Of a DNA stretch of 64,000 nucleotides, positions 35,015 through 46,804 are shown piece by piece (the first letter of the stretch is position 1; every line of letters begins with the position of its first letter). This DNA is from Actinotalea caeni (lineage in GTDB: Bacteria; Actinomycetota; Actinomycetes; Actinomycetales; Beutenbergiaceae). Position numbers and translations under genes: made by a program. Below the pieces are notes generated by a model. The model saw only the letters and a list, made by a program, of their open reading frames with translations. It was not told where the DNA came from and searched no databases. Location of the stretch: the NCBI RefSeq assembly GCF_009733795.1, contig NZ_WNXX01000003.1, forward strand, positions 62,001 through 126,000, read 5' to 3'.

Positions 35015-35707
35015 TCAGGTGGTCATGCCATCGAGCCGATAGCCCATGCCGGGTTCGGTGAGCAGATATGTCGGATTGCTCGGGTCTTCTTCTAGTTTGC
35101 GGCGGAGTTGGGAGACATAGAGGCGGAGGTAGCCGGTGTCTTCGGCGTGTTCAGTGCCCCAGATGGTGGTGAGGATGGTTTGGCGAGTGACGAGTTTCCC
35201 GGCGTTGCGGATGAGGATATCGATGAACTGCCATTCAGTGGGGGTGAGTCGAATCTGTTTCTGCCCGTCGGCAGTTTCGCGGGTAACGCTGTGGGCGGCG
35301 AGGTCGATGGTGACGTTGCCGAGGTGCACCACGGGCGTGGCGTCTTCTTGGGGAACACGCCGTGTAAGGGCGCGGATGCGCGCGAGGAGTTCTTCGACAG
35401 CAAAGGGTTTGGTGATGTAGTCGTCGGCGCCCGCATCAAGGGCTTCGACTTTGTCGGCGGCGCCGGCACGCCCGGAGACGACGAGGATGGGTGCCTGGGA
35501 CCAGCCGCGGATGCCGTGGATGACTTCGATGCCGTCGAGTTCGGGCATGCCGAGGTCGATGAGGAAGATGTCGGGGTGGTGGTCTATGGCCGCGGTGATC
35601 GCCTGGGCGCCGTCGGCCGCGGTGAAGATCTCGTACCCCTTGGCGGTGAGGGTGATGCGCAGGGCACGGAGGATCTGGGGGTCGTCGTCGGCGATGAGGA
35701 TTTTCAT
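35015..35707 (-). CDS. kdpE: KdpE response regulator
   Basis: A 230-residue OmpR-type regulator of the Kdp system. The receiver domain begins KILIADDDPQILRALRITL with phospho-acceptor aspartate in DIFLIDLGMPELDG (about residue 52) and lysine in DYITKPFAVEELLARI. The winged helix has LTPTEWQFIDILIRNAGKLV and the closing YLRLYVSQLRRKLEEDPS. The start overlaps the kdpD stop by 4 bp. Confidence 0.95.
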   Translation of the reverse strand: MKILIADDDPQILRALRITLTAKGYEIFTAADGAQAITAAIDHHPDIFLIDLGMPELDGIEVIHGIRGWSQAPILVVSGRAGAADKVEALDAGADDYITKPFAVEELLARIRALTRRVPQEDATPVVHLGNVTIDLAAHSVTRETADGQKQIRLTPTEWQFIDILIRNAGKLVTRQTILTTIWGTEHAEDTGYLRLYVSQLRRKLEEDPSNPTYLLTEPGMGYRLDGMTT

Positions 35708-38199
35708 GACGGCTCCTGGCTCGTGGAGATCGTGGGAAGGGAGATGACCATGGTGAGTCCGCCGCCGGGGGTGTCCTCGGGGGTGAGGGTGCCGTGCATG
35801 GCTTCGATGAATCCGCGCGAGAGGGCGAGGCCGAGTCCGAGGCCGGTCGTGTTGTCGGTGTCGCCGAGGCGTTGGAAGGGTAGGAAGATGTCGTCGAGTT
35901 TTTCGGGTGGGATGCCGGGGCCGCGGTCGATGATGCGGATTTCGAGCCGGTCGGCGAAGGTGCTGGTGCTGACGTGGATGGAGGTGCCGGCCGGGGTGTA
36001 GCGGTGCGCGTTGGTGAGGAGGTTGACGAGCACGCGTTGGAGCAGGACCGGGTCGGCGTGCGCCACCGCGTCACCGTGATTGAGCGAGAGGGTGACGTCG
36101 GTGGGGCCGAGGTGGAGTTCGTCGAGGGCGGGCGCGATGGTCTCGGCGGGATCGGTCGGGATCTCCGCGATGGTGAGAACCCCGGCTTGCAGTCGGCTGA
36201 CGTCGAGGAGGTCGGTGACCAGGGTTGCGAGTGCGCCCAGGCTCTCCTCGGCGGTGTCGAGCAGTTCCCGCTTCTGCGCGGGCTCCAGGTCGGGTCCTGC
36301 CGCTTTGAGCCCCCCGACCGCGGCAGAGGCGGCCGCAAGCGGGCGACGCAGATCATGGCTGAGCGCGGACAGGAGCGCACCGCGCACCCGGTCCGATGCC
36401 GCGATCGGTTCGATCTGTTTCGCTATCTCGGTGAGGTGCTCGTGTTCGAGGGTTGCGGCGAGTTGTGCGGTGACGACGGCAAGGAGGCGTTGCTCGGATG
36501 CGGCGAGGTCGGGGCCGTGCAGTTCCAGGGTGGTGTCGTCGGTGATCCGGAGGCTGGCGTGATGGTTGTCGGGCAGCGGTTCCCCGGACCGGGCGAGGAC
36601 GTCTTCGCCGCGCATTAGCCGCACGCCGGGGAGTTGGAAGGCTTCGCGGGTGCGGTCGATGAGTGCTTGGATCGCGTTGTCTCCGCGCAGGACGCTGCCG
36701 GCGATGGTCTGGATGAGTTCGGATTCGGCGGCGGAGCGTCGGGCAGCTCGGGTGTAACGGGCGGCCCGGTCGACGACGAAGCTCACCAGGCTCGCGATGA
36801 GGACGTACAGGATCAGGGACAGCAGATGATGCGGCTGGTGGATGTGGATCGTGTACAGCGGTTCGATGAATAGGAAGTCGAGTGTGATGCCCGACAGGAC
36901 GGCGGCGAACAGGGCTGGCCAGAGGCCGCCGACGAGCGCGACGATGACGACGAGGAGCTGGTAGCTGAGGACGTCGGTGGTGATCGAGTCTTCGCTGCGG
37001 AACAGGCTTAGCAGTGCGGTAAGCGCGGGCCCGCCCAGGAGCGCGACGACGAAGCCGAGGATGCGTCGTTTGCGGGTGAGCGCTCCGGTCAGAGGGGGCA
37101 GGGTGAAGCGTTTGCCGGCGGCGGCGTGGTTGACCATGTGCACGTCGATGTCGCCGGATTCGCGGACGACGGTGGCGCCGATTCCGGGTCCGGTGAACGC
37201 GGCGGTGACGCGTCCGCGGCGGCTGGCGCCGAGGACGAGCTGGGTGGCGTTGACGGAGCGGGCGAACTCGACCAGGGCGGTGGGGATGTCTTCCCCGATG
37301 ACCTGATGGTAGGTGCCGTTGAGTTTTTCGACGAGCGCACGCTGTTCGGCAAGGGTCGCCGGGTTCCCGGTGCGGAGCCCGTCTTGGCTGGTGATGTGCA
37401 CGGCGATGAGCTCGCCGCCGGCGGAGCGGGCCGCGATCCGCGCGCCGCGGCGCAGCAGCGTCTCGCCTTCGGGGCCGCCGGTGAGGGCGACGACGACGCG
37501 TTCGCGGGCTTCCCAGGTGCTGTCGATGCCGTGGTCTTTGCGGTATCCCTTCAGCGCCTGGTCGACCTCGTCCGCGAGCCAAATGAGGGCGAGCTCGCGT
37601 AGCGCGGTGAGGTTCCCGAGGCGGAAGTAGTTCGACAGGGCCGCGTCGATGCGTTCGGCCGGGTACACGAATCCGCCGCTGAGCCGGTCGCGGAGCGCTT
37701 GCGGGGCGAGGTCGACGACCTCGATCTGTTCCGCACCGCGGAGGAAGCTGTCGGGGACGGTCTCTCGTTGCGGGACGCCGGTGATCTGTTCGACGACGTC
37801 GTTGAGGGATTCGATGTGCTGGATGTTGAGGGTGGAGATGACGTCGATGCCTGCGGCGAGGAGTTCTTCGACGTCTTGCCAGCGTTTGTCGTTCTTCGAG
37901 CCGGGCGCGTTGGTGTGCGCGAGCTCGTCGACGAGCGCGATCTCGGGGCCACGGTCCAGCACCGCCTGCAGGTCCATCTCCTCGAGGGCAACCCCGCGAT
38001 GTTCGATGCGTGTGCGCGGTACGGCCGGGATTCCCGCGGTCATCGCCGCTGTTGCTGCGCGGCCGTGGGTTTCCACGATCCCGACGACGACATCTTTCCC
38101 GTTCCCGAGGAGGCGTCGCCCTTCTTCCAGCATGGTGAAGGTCTTGCCGACGCCGGGGGCAGCGCCGAGCAACACCCGAAGCTGCCCCCGTTTCGGCAT
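35704..38199 (-). CDS. kdpD: KdpD sensor kinase
   Basis: An 831-residue potassium/turgor sensor kinase. The N-terminal KdpD domain has Walker A-like LLGAAPGVGKTFTMLEEGRR and DELAHTNAPGSKNDKRWQDV. A universal-stress-like domain follows (VVVALTGGPEGETLLRRGAR), then four membrane spans (LGFVVALLGGPALTALLSLF onward, about 385-490). The C-terminal kinase shows histidine motif LSALSHDLRRPLAAASAAVG and ATPase motifs RGPGIPPEKLDDIFLPFQRL and GLGLGLALSRGFIEAMHG. Full length. Its start lies 2 bp after the kdpC stop. Confidence 0.95.
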   Translation of the reverse strand: MPKRGQLRVLLGAAPGVGKTFTMLEEGRRLLGNGKDVVVGIVETHGRAATAAMTAGIPAVPRTRIEHRGVALEEMDLQAVLDRGPEIALVDELAHTNAPGSKNDKRWQDVEELLAAGIDVISTLNIQHIESLNDVVEQITGVPQRETVPDSFLRGAEQIEVVDLAPQALRDRLSGGFVYPAERIDAALSNYFRLGNLTALRELALIWLADEVDQALKGYRKDHGIDSTWEARERVVVALTGGPEGETLLRRGARIAARSAGGELIAVHITSQDGLRTGNPATLAEQRALVEKLNGTYHQVIGEDIPTALVEFARSVNATQLVLGASRRGRVTAAFTGPGIGATVVRESGDIDVHMVNHAAAGKRFTLPPLTGALTRKRRILGFVVALLGGPALTALLSLFRSEDSITTDVLSYQLLVVIVALVGGLWPALFAAVLSGITLDFLFIEPLYTIHIHQPHHLLSLILYVLIASLVSFVVDRAARYTRAARRSAAESELIQTIAGSVLRGDNAIQALIDRTREAFQLPGVRLMRGEDVLARSGEPLPDNHHASLRITDDTTLELHGPDLAASEQRLLAVVTAQLAATLEHEHLTEIAKQIEPIAASDRVRGALLSALSHDLRRPLAAASAAVGGLKAAGPDLEPAQKRELLDTAEESLGALATLVTDLLDVSRLQAGVLTIAEIPTDPAETIAPALDELHLGPTDVTLSLNHGDAVAHADPVLLQRVLVNLLTNAHRYTPAGTSIHVSTSTFADRLEIRIIDRGPGIPPEKLDDIFLPFQRLGDTDNTTGLGLGLALSRGFIEAMHGTLTPEDTPGGGLTMVISLPTISTSQEPS

Positions 38200-38201
38200 G
38201 A

Positions 38202-38816
38202 TCAGTCCTCCAACTCGTCCAGGGCGAGGTTCAGTTCCAGAACGTTCACCCTCGATTCTCCCAAATACCCGGCGTCGGGGCCCTGGGTGTGTGCCGCGAC
38301 GAGTTCCCGCACCTGCTCGGCGGGGATCCCGCGCACGTCGGCGACCCGGTCGATCTGGATCTGCGCGTAGGCGGGGCTGATGTGCGGGTCCAGTCCCGAC
38401 GACGACGCGGTCACCGCGTCCGCGGGCACGTCGGCCTCGGTGACGCCGTTGAACTCCGCGACCTGAGCCTTACGCTCGGTGATCGCCGCGATCAGGTCTT
38501 CGTTCTCCGGGCCCCAGTTCGTTCCCGACGAGGAGCGCCCGTCGTAGCCGTCTCCGGCAGCGGAGGGCCTGCTCTGGAAGTACTCCGGCAACGGGTTGCC
38601 GTCGGAGTCGGTGAAGGACTGGCCGATGAGCGAAGACCCGACGACGTCGCCCTCATTGTTCGTGAGGGATGATCCGTTGGCCTGGGCGGGGAAGGCGAGT
38701 TGTCCGATCCCGGTGATCAGCAGGGTGTAGCCGATGCCGAGGACGACGGTGAACATCAGCAGCGCACGGGTAGCGACCCACAGGGTCCGTCCGCTGCTGC
38801 GTGTTGCAGTGTTCAT
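38202..38816 (-). CDS. kdpC: KdpC subunit of the potassium ATPase
   Basis: A 204-residue membrane-anchored subunit that helps KdpB bind ATP. One N-terminal helix (ALLMFTVVLGIGYTLLITGI) precedes the periplasmic-type domain with the family signatures SSLIGQSFTDSDGNPLPEYF, QSRPSAAGDGYDGRSSSGTN and ASSSGLDPHISPAYAQIQID. Located 22 bp after kdpB. The strict family pattern leaves little doubt. Confidence 0.95.
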   Translation of the reverse strand: MNTATRSSGRTLWVATRALLMFTVVLGIGYTLLITGIGQLAFPAQANGSSLTNNEGDVVGSSLIGQSFTDSDGNPLPEYFQSRPSAAGDGYDGRSSSGTNWGPENEDLIAAITERKAQVAEFNGVTEADVPADAVTASSSGLDPHISPAYAQIQIDRVADVRGIPAEQVRELVAAHTQGPDAGYLGESRVNVLELNLALDELED

Positions 38817-38838
38817 GGGGTGTGTTCCTTTTCGCAGG

Positions 38839-40995
38839 TCAGAATCCGGGGATCAGGCGCACGAGGAGATCGATGAGCCAGATGCCGATGAAGGGGGTGA
38901 TGATGCCGCCCAGGCCGTAGACGGCGAGGTTGCGGCCGAGGATCTTCGACGCGTTCATCGGCCGGTACTTCACGCCGCGCAGGGCGAGGGGCACGAGGAA
39001 CACGATCACGATCGCGTTGAAGATCACCGCCGACAGCACCGCCGATGCGGGCGAGTGCAACCCCATGACGTTCAGCACCGACAGGCCCGGGAACACGCCC
39101 ATGAAGATCGCCGGGATGATCGCGAAGTACTTCGCGATATCGTTCGCAATCGAGAACGTGGTCAGCGCGCCGCGGGTGATCAGCAACTGCTTGCCGATCG
39201 CGACGATGTCGATGAGCTTGGTCGGGTCGGAGTCCAGGTCGACCATGTTTCCGGCCTCTTTCGCCGCCGACGTGCCGGTGTTCATCGCGACGCCCACGTC
39301 GGCCTGCGCGAGCGCGGGCGCGTCGTTGGTGCCGTCACCGGTCATCGCGACCAGGCTGCCGCCCTCCTGCTCCTTGCGGATGTAGGCGAGCTTCTGCTCG
39401 GGGGTGGCCTCGGCGAGGAAGTCGTCCACGCCGGCCTCCTTCGCGATCGCCGCTGCGGTGAGCGGGTTGTCGCCGGTGACCATCACGGTGCGGATGCCCA
39501 TGGCGCGCAGTTCCGCGAACCGCGCGGTCAGGCCCTCCTTGACGATGTCTTTGAGGTGGACCACTCCAAGCACCCGTCGCTGTCCTGTCCCGGTCTTGAC
39601 CGCCACCACCAGCGGGGTGCCGCCGGAGGAGGAGATGTGCTCGACGTGCTCATCCAACTCGGCGAGCACACTGCTGGGAAGGCGCGTGCCGTCCTCTTCC
39701 AGCCAGGCGGTGATCGCCGAGCCGGCGCCCTTTCGGATCTGAGACCCGTCGGGCATGTCCAGCCCGGACATGCGGGTCTGCGCGGTGAACGGCACGATCT
39801 CCCCGTTCCCTGCGGCTTCCGCGTCGACTCCCTCTACGTGGGCAAGATCGACGATCGACTTGCCCTCCGGGGTCGGGTCGGCCAGGGACGAGAGTGCGGC
39901 GGCCTCGATGAGCTCCCGCTCGCGGACGCCGTCCAACCGGACGAACGCGGTCGCGCGGCGGTTGCCGTAGGTGATGGTACCGGTCTTGTCCAGCAGCAGC
40001 GTGGTCACATCTCCGGCCGCTTCCACCGCCCGCCCGGACATGGCCAGGACGTTGCGTTGCACGAGACGGTCCATGCCCGCGATGCCGATCGCAGACAGCA
40101 ACGCTCCGATCGTGGTGGGGATGAGGCAGACCAGCAGCGCCACCAGAACGGTGATACTCGCCGGGCTCGCCGGGTAGGAGGCGATCGGGTTCAGCGTCAG
40201 CGCGACGACGACGAACACGATCGACAGCGACGCGAGGAGGATGTTCAGCGCGATCTCGTTCGGGGTGCGCTGGCGGGCCGCGCCTTCCACGAGCGCGATC
40301 ATCCGGTCCACGAACGTCTCGCCCGGCTTGGACGTGATCCGCACGACGATCCGGTCCGAGAGCACCCGGGTGCCGCCGGTGACGGCGGACCGGTCACCGC
40401 CGGACTCACGCACCACAGGGGCCGACTCACCGGTGATCGCGGACTCGTCCACGCTCGCAATGCCCCATACGATGTCCCCATCGCCGGGGATGAGCTCCCC
40501 GGCGGACACCACGACGATGTCGCCCAGCCGCAGATCCGCCGAGGACACGTCCGCCGCCGGGGTCTGCTCCGCTGCCGGATCGGTGCCGGGGTGGTAGCTG
40601 ACCACCCGGTGCGCGGTGGTGCTGGTGCGGGTCTTACGCAGCGTGTCGGCTTGCGCCTTGCCGCGGCCTTCGGCGATCGACTCGGCGAGGTTCGCGAACA
40701 GCACCGTCAACCACAGCCAAACGGCGATGATCCAGGTGAATGACCAGGGCACGCTCGTGCCACCCGACTCCGCGGGGCCGCCGAGGAAGGGCTCGACGAC
40801 GGCGAGCAGCGTGGTGAGCGCGGCGCCGACCCACACGATGAACATCACCGGGTTGCGCCACTGGGCGCGAGGGTCGAGCTTGCGGAGCGCACCGGGGAGC
40901 GCGGCCTGGATCTGCGCCCAGGTCAGGGTCTTGCGCCGTGCGGGCGCCGACGATTTCGGCGCCTCGGGAACAGGGGTGTGTGTGAGAGTTGACAT
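38839..40995 (-). CDS. kdpB: KdpB, P-type ATPase subunit
   Basis: A 718-residue P-type ATPase driving potassium import. The phosphorylation site is [16 protein letters not shown] (about residues 311-326), the TGES loop is [20 protein letters not shown], and the hinge is [20 protein letters not shown]. The N-terminus (about 1-30) is basic and variable. The gene follows kdpA with a 3-bp gap. Confidence 0.96.
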
Positions 40996-40998
40996 GGT

Positions 40999-42669
40999 TT
41001 ACAGCAGCCCTTCCGCCAGGGGACCCAGCGTGAGAACGGGGAAGAAAACGAGTGCGGTCACCAGGACTGCGGTGCCGACAGTGAGCCCGACGAACAGCGG
41101 CCGGTGCGTGGGCAAGGTTCCTGCGGTCGCGGGGATCTTGTCCTGCGCGGCGAGGGAGCCTGCCAGGGCGAGGACCAGCGCGATCGAGATGAACCGGCCG
41201 AACAACATCGCGACACCGATCGCGGCCGTCAGCCACGGGGTACTGGCGGTCAGTCCCGCGAACGCGGACCCGTTGTTGTTCGCGCCCGACGCGAACGCGT
41301 AGATCACCTCGGACAGGCCGTGCGATCCGGTGTTCGTGAGCGACTCGTTGACGATACTGTCTCGCAGCGCGGGGATCGCGAAGCTGAGCGCGACACCACC
41401 GAGGACGAGCAGCGGCATCACCAGGATGTACAGGCTCGCCAGCTTCATCTCCCGCGGGCCGATCTTCTTGCCCAGGTACTCGGGAGTGCGTCCCACGAGC
41501 AGTCCCGCGACGAACACGGCGATTACCGCGATGATCAGCATCCCGTACAGACCCGCACCGACACCACCTGGAGCGATCTCGCCCAACAGCATGTTGACCA
41601 TGGGCATCATCCCGCCCAGAGCCGTGTACGAGTCGTGCATGGAATTCACCGACCCGGTGGAGGTGAGGGTGGTCGTGCCGGCGTAGATCACGGACTGCGC
41701 GAGCCCGAAACGGGCCTCCTTGCCTTCCATGGCGGCGCCCGCCAACTGCGGGGCGGTGCCGTCGCCGGCGAACTCGAACGCCGCAAGCGCCGCGACCGAG
41801 GCCAGGTAAAGCGTGCCCATCGCAGCGAGGATGGCGTACCCCTGCCGGTTATCGCCGACCATCTTGCCGAAGGTACGTGGCAGCGAGAACGGAATCAGCA
41901 GGATCAAGAAGCACTGGAAGAGGCTGATCCACCCGGTCGGGTTCTCAAACGGGTGTGACGCGTTCGCGTTGTAGAAGCCACCGCCGTTCGTGCCGAGCTC
42001 CTTGATGACTTCCTGGGACGCTACCGGCCCACCCGGAATCGTCTGCGTGCCCCCGGTGATGGTGGTGACATCGACGTAGCCGTTGAAGTTCTGCACGACG
42101 CCGCCGGCGATCAGGACGATCGCCCCGACGATCGAGAGCGGAAGAAGAATACGGAACGTGCCACGGACCAGGTCGACCCAGAAGTTGCCGATGGTGCCCG
42201 AGCGGCGGTACGCAAACCCGCGCACCAGTGCCACGGCCACGGCGATACCCGTCGCCGCAGAGACGAAGTTCTGCACCGCCAGGCCGGCGAACTGCACGGT
42301 GTACGACAGGTCCTCACCGGAGTACGCCTGCCAGTTGGTGTTGGTGACGAACGAGATAGCCGTGTTGAAAGCCACCCCCGAGTCGATGTTCTCGTTCCCC
42401 AGGGAATACGGCAACCACTGCTGCGTGCGCTGCAACAGGAACAGCAGCAGCACGCCGACGACCGAGAAGTACAGCACCGACCGCAGATAGACCTGCCAGG
42501 ACTGCTCCTTCGACGGGTCAACGCCGATGACCTTATAGATCCCGCGTTCGACCTTCCAGTTCTTCCGGGTCGTGAACACCCAGGCCATGTAATCGCCGAC
42601 GGGCCGGTACAGCAGACCCAGGGCGAGGGCGAGCGTTGCGACGCTCGCGATCAGCATCCACCACTCCAT
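40999..42669 (-). CDS. kdpA: KdpA, potassium-translocating subunit
   Basis: A 556-residue polytopic membrane protein with four selectivity-filter-like repeats. Visible blocks include [60 protein letters not shown] and [20 protein letters not shown]. Normal family length. Its start overlaps the kdpF stop as TGATG. Confidence 0.96.
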
Positions 42670-45697: not shown

Positions 45698-46804
45698 TCA
45701 GGAATTGAGCATCTCCCAGGCCGTTCTCAAAGCCGCGACAGCTTGCCTCGGGAGAACACCATTCCCGAGCGAAGCAAGTTGTTGGTTGGTGGTCAGCGCA
45801 TGACACGCATCGGTCACCCATCCGGACGGTAGCCCCATAAGCCATTCGACGAATAGGGGTGCTGGACGCGGGCCGGTCTCGTCGCTCAGAATCGCCGGTG
45901 ACGGAGCAGCGCGGCGACTGATCTGCTCCCAGCGGGTCACAGCTTCGGCGTATCGTCCCCAGCGTCGAAGAGCTGCCCGATCAACGACCACAGGCTCTCG
46001 GACTCTTCCGGGCGCGGGTAGCCGTTCGGCCCGTGGAGGGCGAGGTCGATGATCTGATGGCTCAGTGCAATCGTGCCACGGCGCGCTTTCACCTGCTGCA
46101 AGCTCTCCCCGCCGCGTGAAGCGTCCGACGCCAGTGGGGTTCGGAAGAGTGCGGTGGGCGAGGATGAAGACCCGGTATCGGGGATGGGGTGCGCCGACGT
46201 GGGAAGCGGGTAGACCGATCCATTGCGCGTCATACCGGAGGTCGGCCAGGTCTCCCAGAACTGCTCCTGCTGCCCGAAGAGGTCGAGCTGCGGTTTCTCC
46301 CAAATGCCACGAGTCGGATTCCACACCGCGAGGGGTTGCGCCGCTGGGAGTTGCACCTCTGGGGTTGCGTTGCTCATCGTTGTCTCCTTCGGGGATCGTG
46401 CGGATCGCGGGTGCAGATAGCAGCCCGCGGACGTTCTCGATCACGACCCACTCCGGTTGCAGAGCATCGATTGCTGCGGCCATGTGAGACCAGAGTCCGG
46501 AGCGAGTGCCGGGCTTGAGGCCGGCCATCTTCCCGACCGTCGACACGTCCTGGCAAGGAAAGCCGCCGCAGAGGATGTCCACCGGCGGGACGGTATTCCA
46601 GTTGATGGTGGTGATGTCGCCGAGATTGGGGGCGTCGGGCCAGTGGTGGGAGAAGACGCGGGCGATGGGCTGGTTGATTTCGGAGAACCAGATGGTGCGG
46701 GCGTCGAAGATTTCCTCGACGGCGAGGTCGAGCCCGCCGTAGCCGGAGAACAGCGACCCGACGCGCAGCGGTTCGGCGTGGGCGATGGGAGTCGTATCTG
46801 CCAT
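45698..46804 (-). CDS. DNA cytosine-5 methyltransferase
   Basis: A 368-residue C5 methyltransferase. Motif I is RVGSLFSGYGGLDLAVEEIF (about residues 14-33). The catalytic Pro-Cys is in DILCGGFPCQDVSTVGKMAG (about 75-94), ENV is WVVIENVRGLLSAP, motif VIII is GAPHPRYRVFILAH, and the C-terminal motif X region is TTNQQLASLGNGVLPRQAVA. The ATG at 46804 has AGGAGG 8 bases upstream. Residues about 143-289 are encoded by DNA that also carries a second ORF in another frame. Likely shields the ICE from host restriction. No cognate endonuclease is adjacent. Confidence 0.9.
   Translation of the reverse strand: MADTTPIAHAEPLRVGSLFSGYGGLDLAVEEIFDARTIWFSEINQPIARVFSHHWPDAPNLGDITTINWNTVPPVDILCGGFPCQDVSTVGKMAGLKPGTRSGLWSHMAAAIDALQPEWVVIENVRGLLSAPAIRTIPEGDNDEQRNPRGATPSGATPRGVESDSWHLGETAARPLRAAGAVLGDLADLRYDAQWIGLPASHVGAPHPRYRVFILAHRTLPNPTGVGRFTRRGELAAGESAPWHDCTEPSDHRPRPPRAERLPAPGRVREPVVVDRAALRRWGRYAEAVTRWEQISRRAAPSPAILSDETGPRPAPLFVEWLMGLPSGWVTDACHALTTNQQLASLGNGVLPRQAVAALRTAWEMLNS
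45937..46377 (-). CDS. ORF nested out of frame within the methyltransferase gene
   Basis: A 146-residue product read in another frame of the same strand. It has its own start signal: AAGGAG 6 bases before the ATG at 46377. The sequence looks like real protein: QLDLFGQQEQFWETWPTSGM, TRNGSVYPLPTSAHPIPDTG, LFRTPLASDASRGGESLQQV, RGTIALSHQIIDLALHG. From memory, W-x-x-SGMTR-x-G...P-T-S-AHP blocks accompany phage and actinobacterial C5 methyltransferases, either fused or separate. Role unknown, perhaps target recognition or assembly with the enzyme. The overlap is complete, so both frames are constrained. Confidence 0.65.
   Translation of the reverse strand: MSNATPEVQLPAAQPLAVWNPTRGIWEKPQLDLFGQQEQFWETWPTSGMTRNGSVYPLPTSAHPIPDTGSSSSPTALFRTPLASDASRGGESLQQVKARRGTIALSHQIIDLALHGPNGYPRPEESESLWSLIGQLFDAGDDTPKL

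Follow-up and report, generated by a model that had tools for sequence, protein, structure and literature searches.

A gene nested out of frame within a C5-cytosine DNA methyltransferase gene is conserved in phages and mobile elements and may encode a second enzyme subunit

The window, that is, the whole stretch of DNA that was analysed, comprises 64,000 nucleotides from Actinotalea caeni (contig NZ_WNXX01000003.1, positions 62,001 to 126,000) and carries, on its minus strand, two genes that share the same DNA. The outer gene (alpha, 45698..46804) encodes a C5-cytosine DNA methyltransferase of 368 aa, identified by its matches to PF00145 (E 3.6e-33) and TIGR00675, by its motifs and by alignment with M.HhaI. 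A single outer frame holds motifs I, IV (PCQ, 46550..46558, minus strand), VI (ENV, 46430..46438, minus strand) and VIII (GAPHPRYR), a WGRYA segment, an equivalent of motif IX (FVEWLMGLPSGW, 45818..45853, minus strand) and motif X (LGNGV, within LGNGVLP at 45749..45769, minus strand). The nested gene (beta, or inner gene, 45937..46377, minus strand) consists of 146 codons plus a stop, starts with ATG and is read in the +1 frame relative to the outer gene. Its Shine-Dalgarno sequence AAGGAG (46384..46389, minus strand) ends 6 nt before the ATG and coincides with the outer codons E-G-D. The nested ORF lies wholly within the outer one, and the overlap takes in motif VIII, the linker that follows it and the WGRYA segment.

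The sequence-only reading that singled out this locus had claimed a 146-codon out-of-frame gene inside a C5 methyltransferase gene, with AAGGAG 6 bases from its ATG; the coordinates, the start codon, the enclosure within 45698-46804 and the Shine-Dalgarno sequence were all verified. It had also stated that the methyltransferase frame keeps motif VIII and its C-terminal region over the same DNA, with the refinement that motifs IX and X are found in the outer frame alone, downstream of the nested stop. Within the overlap, two dual-coded stretches can be told apart. The first (O1, 46157..46324, minus strand) encodes outer motifs VII-VIII (...RYDAQW...VGAPHPRYRVFILA) together with the N-terminal beta domain of the nested protein, which reads WNPTRGIWE...SGMTRNG...SAHPIPDTGSSSS. 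In the second (O2, 46024..46156, minus strand), the nested frame encodes the module LFRTPLASDASRGGESLQQVKARRGTIALSHQIIDLALHG, and the outer frame is an open, weakly conserved linker. The nested protein of the window contains no motif IX, and the beta proteins of its close clade contain no methyltransferase motif at all.

Divergent to the methyltransferase gene lies a gene for a TrwC-type relaxase (PF08751, 47085-50636), and the two are also neighbours in 62 of 83 close relatives, which suggests that conjugative elements of actinobacteria regularly carry the methyltransferase pair. A DUF6611 protein (PF20315, 44888-45433) is encoded on the same strand just downstream of the methyltransferase. 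Farther away, at 35704-42669, are genes on the same strand as one another that, judged by sequence alone, look like those for KdpD, KdpB and KdpA (potassium uptake). The same 4.0 Mb genome carries a second nested/outer pair (G000:C13:35555-35977), in which the nested protein is 67% and the outer protein 71% identical to those of the window.

In AlphaFold models, the core of the outer protein is predicted with high confidence and aligns with M.HhaI (Z 22.8, rmsd 3.3, 238 of 327 residues). The linker after motif VIII has no confidently predicted structure: pLDDT is under 50 for residues 222-250 and mostly 31-58 over residues 222-276 (a single run with 23 sequences), a region where conservation is close to the level of an echo of the nested frame. 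Residues 11-60 of the nested protein, which are encoded over motifs VII-VIII and just before them, are modelled as five strands with pLDDT 83-91, and its C-terminal half is of low confidence (pLDDT 50-59). A comparison of the nested model with PDB folds returned no match with Z of 2 or more, and the top matches in a viral structure library were only phage proteins of its own kind. Given the low-confidence C-terminal half and the lack of a PDB match, a target-recognition fold of the nested protein has not been demonstrated.

That the nested frame is open in the window is unremarkable. When the outer codons were redrawn synonymously, keeping the outer protein and its codon usage, 35% of the redraws left the 146 codons of the +1 frame without a stop (P=0.35); the single-sequence open frame was rejected as evidence, and any evidence beyond chance is comparative. 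An unbiased viral set was assembled by fetching 80 loci with outer motifs I and IV only, of which 67 could be parsed; unlike these 80, the genome and viral loci that were found with the nested protein are not an unbiased sample. In all 67 viral methyltransferases, the 50 codons that end at motif VIII+15 contain no stop in the nested +1 frame (20.1 loci expected); in the +2 frame, this holds for 10 of the 67 (11.5 expected). When only viral loci with a GC below 0.55 are counted, the figures are 37 of 37 for the +1 frame (5.6 expected) and 1 of 37 for the +2 frame. An SGM..G-like motif is present in 63 of the 67 viral loci, and a WN....W pattern in most of the translations. Homologous methyltransferases with stops in the nested frame, which would have refuted the proposed gene, were sought in this set and none was found (0/67); in the wider set, too, exceptions are few, with 1 of 211 loci not open at motif VIII.

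Selection on the two frames was assessed in an alignment of 46 non-redundant close relatives that is free of gaps over 101 codons. Identity at fourfold-synonymous sites of the outer frame is 0.557 over motifs I-VI and 0.419 over motifs IX-X, the within-gene controls, and within the overlap is 0.828 under the nested WNPTRGIWET, 0.642 under motifs VII-VIII and 0.937 after motif VIII. Heterozygosity at outer codon positions 1, 2 and 3 shifts from.114,.087 and.360 to.465,.179 and.115 after motif VIII; there, the first outer position (the nested wobble position) varies most and the third (the nested second position) least. Over the same part, identity is 0.80 in the nested frame, 0.44 in the outer and 0.45 in the third frame. 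Both the outer and the nested frames are stop-free in all 46 relatives, and the third frame contains stops in 28 of the 46. Redrawing the outer codons predicts nested identities of 0.40, 0.43 and 0.34 for the three parts of the overlap, against 0.76, 0.62 and 0.80 observed. The converse redraw of nested codons after motif VIII predicts an outer identity of 0.37 (0.44 observed) and open outer frames in 30 of 46 relatives (46 observed); outer conservation there is near the redraw level, suggesting that the outer frame is mainly an open linker in this part. The codon redraws ignore shared ancestry, for which the within-gene controls account. In 30 highly diverged methyltransferases (GC 42-71%), the outer synonymous identity likewise rises from 0.293 in the control to 0.36-0.76 across the overlap. 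The homologue comparison thus reveals the joint conservation that had been proposed for the two frames (outer synonymous identity of 0.83 and 0.94 in the overlap versus 0.56 and 0.42 in the controls): synonymous depression, the switch of the wobble position and nested identity above the echo all indicate selection on both.

The signals for separate initiation of the nested gene are conserved as well. The start codon is ATG in 42 of 45 close relatives and lies exactly 18 codons before the W in 36 of 45; at least 5 nt of the Shine-Dalgarno sequence TAAGGAGGT are present in 43 of 45, compared with about 3% of random positions. The AAGGAG of the window sits in an insertion of the outer protein (residues 129-176) that is disordered in the outer model. 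In the phage types, the nested GTG or ATG directly follows motif VI, and the Shine-Dalgarno sequence is built from the Arg-Gly codons of ENVRG. The Arg codon in question is AGA or AGG in 58 of the 65 loci that have such a start nearby versus 11 of the 43 that do not (p 1.4e-11) and in 0 of 56 loci of the close group, whose nested start lies elsewhere; other Arg codons are AGR in 6-17% of cases. Many phages have a stop directly before the nested start. At the level of sequence comparison, both the selection on the two frames and the conservation of the nested start signals can be considered established.

The nested protein has numerous homologues. A tblastn search with it matched 215 phage records, and it was detected in 22 of 396 genomes of the order; an identical protein is encoded in Microbacterium ihumii. 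The N-terminal domain was found in 7 of 396 genomes of the phylum and is thus sparse in chromosomes. Another homologue is encoded on a Microbacterium plasmid, where the ORF is annotated as a stand-alone hypothetical protein, and in the records inspected the nested frame is mostly unannotated or annotated as a fragment. Searches of Pfam, NCBIfam and PDB sequences yielded no match for the nested protein. It does match PHROG 1008, 'DNA methyltransferase' (E 3e-13, positions 67-150 of 329), its phage relatives match most of the length of that profile, and the nested proteins form a family within PHROG 1008 that is represented in phages of many bacterial groups. The PHROG 1008 entry says nothing of an N-terminal part encoded out of frame inside another gene, and a literature search, which did not reach the original description of EcoHK31I, found no account of the nested frame as a conserved phage family.

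The best 80 of 205 genome loci and 90 viral loci were read. Frames are broken in several close loci, in both frames of L010 and in one frame of L044/L091, L041 and L057. In seven close bacterial loci (L035, L041, L057, L058, L071, L092 and L109), the outer frame ends prematurely, ahead of motif IX or X, and the nested frame remains open, which reflects either decay or a different division of the enzyme. Mycobacterium phage GigiOuiOui (L006, 2642-3726) has an extra break of the outer frame between motifs IV and VI, and its annotated methylase gene pair may be defective.

The relatives differ in where motifs IX and X are encoded. Of the 211 surveyed loci, 125 encode both motifs in the outer frame and 46 encode both in the nested frame; in 3, IX is nested and X is in the outer frame. 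A more distant set of 80 loci, 36 of which were not parsed and 6 of which showed no outer motif VIII, has motif IX nested and motif X outer in 35 of the 37 loci with an overlapping outer methyltransferase, the nested frame always being +1. The latter layout is also present in phages of Escherichia, Acinetobacter and Lacticaseibacillus and, with less complete motifs, in Sulfitobacter and Synechococcus phages and a Methylorubrum megaplasmid. Neither IX nor X was found in both frames of one locus, save for two chance-like matches to X. The statement in the sequence-only reading that similar segments occur beside or fused to other C5 methyltransferases is borne out by hundreds of homologues and by the fusion of the nested protein to motifs IX-X in 46 of the 211 loci. 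In six loci (L004, L005, L012, L027, L029 and L205), repeated modules of 30-40 residues (LLPTPRASDGTKGGPNQRGSSGDLMLPSAV and variants) are present in varying number at the target-recognition position, encoded by the outer or the nested frame depending on the locus; possibly, these repeats are exchangeable recognition modules.

Under the interpretation that we favour, one DNA stretch encodes two proteins. The outer alpha would be the catalytic part of a C5-cytosine methyltransferase, and the nested beta, read one base on, would have a separate start at a ribosome-binding site of its own within the alpha gene. Beta is inferred to bind alpha, yielding a two-chain methyltransferase, and to provide the target-recognition part, which is missing from alpha between motifs VIII and IX; no interaction, expression or methylation data are available. 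With IX or IX-X nested in many relatives, the catalytic chain there is incomplete alone, and a two-chain enzyme is the best reading. The window clade presents a different situation: alpha has motifs I-X, but its target-recognition position is occupied only by a disordered linker of poor conservation, and beta would provide a folded N-terminal domain and an 'RTPxASDxxRGG...GTIALSHQ' module. Because the nested protein of the window has no motif IX, a subunit role in this clade rests on homology to the relatives, and target recognition by beta is inferred from the unfolded alpha linker in the model and the confidently modelled beta residues 11-60. As a counterpoint, the predicted TRD of M.EcoHK31I has been placed in the larger chain (PMC3404938). 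A nested arrangement within a single gene would prevent the two chains from being separated during transfer to new hosts by mobile elements. On balance, we consider it probable, with expression unproven and no methylation data, that the nested beta is a separately started second subunit that gives alpha its target recognition. The broader proposition, for which we see an even case, is that of an old, large group of phage and mobile-element C5 methyltransferases, spread over several phyla, whose target-recognition subunit is encoded out of frame over motifs VI-VIII, with IX and X moving between frames and the window clade being a full-motif chain that takes its specificity from the nested protein in trans.

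Alternatively, the nested gene, although conserved and equipped with its own start, might not encode an enzyme subunit but some other product, such as a regulator, a counter-defence protein or a methyltransferase chaperone, which we regard as rather unlikely, if still a live option. The lack of methyltransferase motifs in the close-clade beta next to a full set of I-X in alpha is compatible with such a role, as is the fact that no family library other than PHROG 1008 assigns beta a function; it is harder to reconcile with the 46 loci in which IX-X are nested and the 38 more in which IX alone is nested, with X outside, where alpha is incomplete, and with the conserved nested module occupying the target-recognition position. 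Programmed frameshifting, in which a single polypeptide would cross from the outer to the nested frame (and back) in place of two proteins with separate starts, appears improbable. It would explain why the strongest selection moves to the nested frame immediately after motif VIII and returns to the outer frame ahead of IX, a switch that looks like an ancestral order of I-VIII, module and IX-X that has been split. However, the nested WNPxRGxWET is under selection upstream of the change-over (0.83 synonymous identity) and would be absent from any shifted chain, which argues against frameshifting, as do the conserved nested start codon and Shine-Dalgarno sequence, the stop directly before the nested start in many phages and the two shifts that the window would need. 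That the synonymous constraint stems from an RNA structure or a DNA site, or that the close loci represent a decaying split gene, is very doubtful: the broken frames in L010, L044/L091, L041 and L057 might be so explained, but not the codon periodicity in the nested frame or the 46 loci free of stops in both frames with a third frame stopped in 28. Least credible of all is an untranslated nested ORF that merely results from conservation of the outer protein and from GC-rich codon usage. Although the open frame of the window alone is no surprise (P=0.35) and part of the nested motif is dictated by the outer GYDAQW and GAPHxRxRVF, nested conservation far exceeds the simulated echo, the wobble position flips and the +1 frame is open in all 37 loci of GC under 0.55 where 5.6 are expected.

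Long out-of-frame overlaps selected in both frames are considered uncommon among bacteria, and annotation rules suppress them; the long dual-selected overlap described here recurs in hundreds of phage and bacterial loci. Should beta indeed supply target recognition, many phage 'orphan' methyltransferases of the nested group would be two-chain enzymes, and a recoded annotated gene, or alpha alone, would fail or change specificity when cloned. The loci would then also offer a natural series of states (IX in beta, IX-X in beta, IX-X in alpha) in which the division of a protein between two frames could be studied.

Out-of-frame genes within actinophage DNA methylase genes have been described before, namely the ShiLan domain and Pacc40 hidden HNH endonucleases, which have GTG starts and are inserted homing endonucleases of patchy presence (PMC11855218). 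The nested gene is unrelated to them: it overlays conserved methyltransferase motifs without any insertion and is present in every unbiased relative that was parsed. A hidden HNH homing endonuclease was rejected as an identity for the nested gene, which has no Pfam or NCBIfam match, overlies the conserved motif VIII and is not an insertion.

M.AquI is a split C5 methyltransferase, with motifs I-VIII in alpha and the distal variable region and IX-X in beta, and its two genes overlap by only a few bases. The 46 phage-type loci, in which the outer frame stops after VIII and the nested frame continues into IX-X, share this division of the motifs. Unlike in M.AquI, however, beta has an extra N-terminal domain wholly encoded within alpha, the overlap spans a few hundred nt or the entire beta gene, and the outer protein of the window carries I-X. 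The small chain of EcoHK31I is said, in work of Lee, Kam and Shaw from 1995, to be encoded in another frame inside the large-chain gene, and in this respect the window, where a second chain is likewise out of frame inside the catalytic gene, would resemble M.EcoHK31I. This enzyme (YGGCCR) is a two-polypeptide C5 methyltransferase with motifs I-VIII and X in the larger chain and IX in the smaller one (PMC3404938), a layout that recurs in the distant relatives (IX nested, X outer, +1). In contrast, the window and its close clade have both IX and X in the outer chain and a nested protein without IX, and because of this placement of IX and X the window form differs from both M.EcoHK31I and M.AquI.
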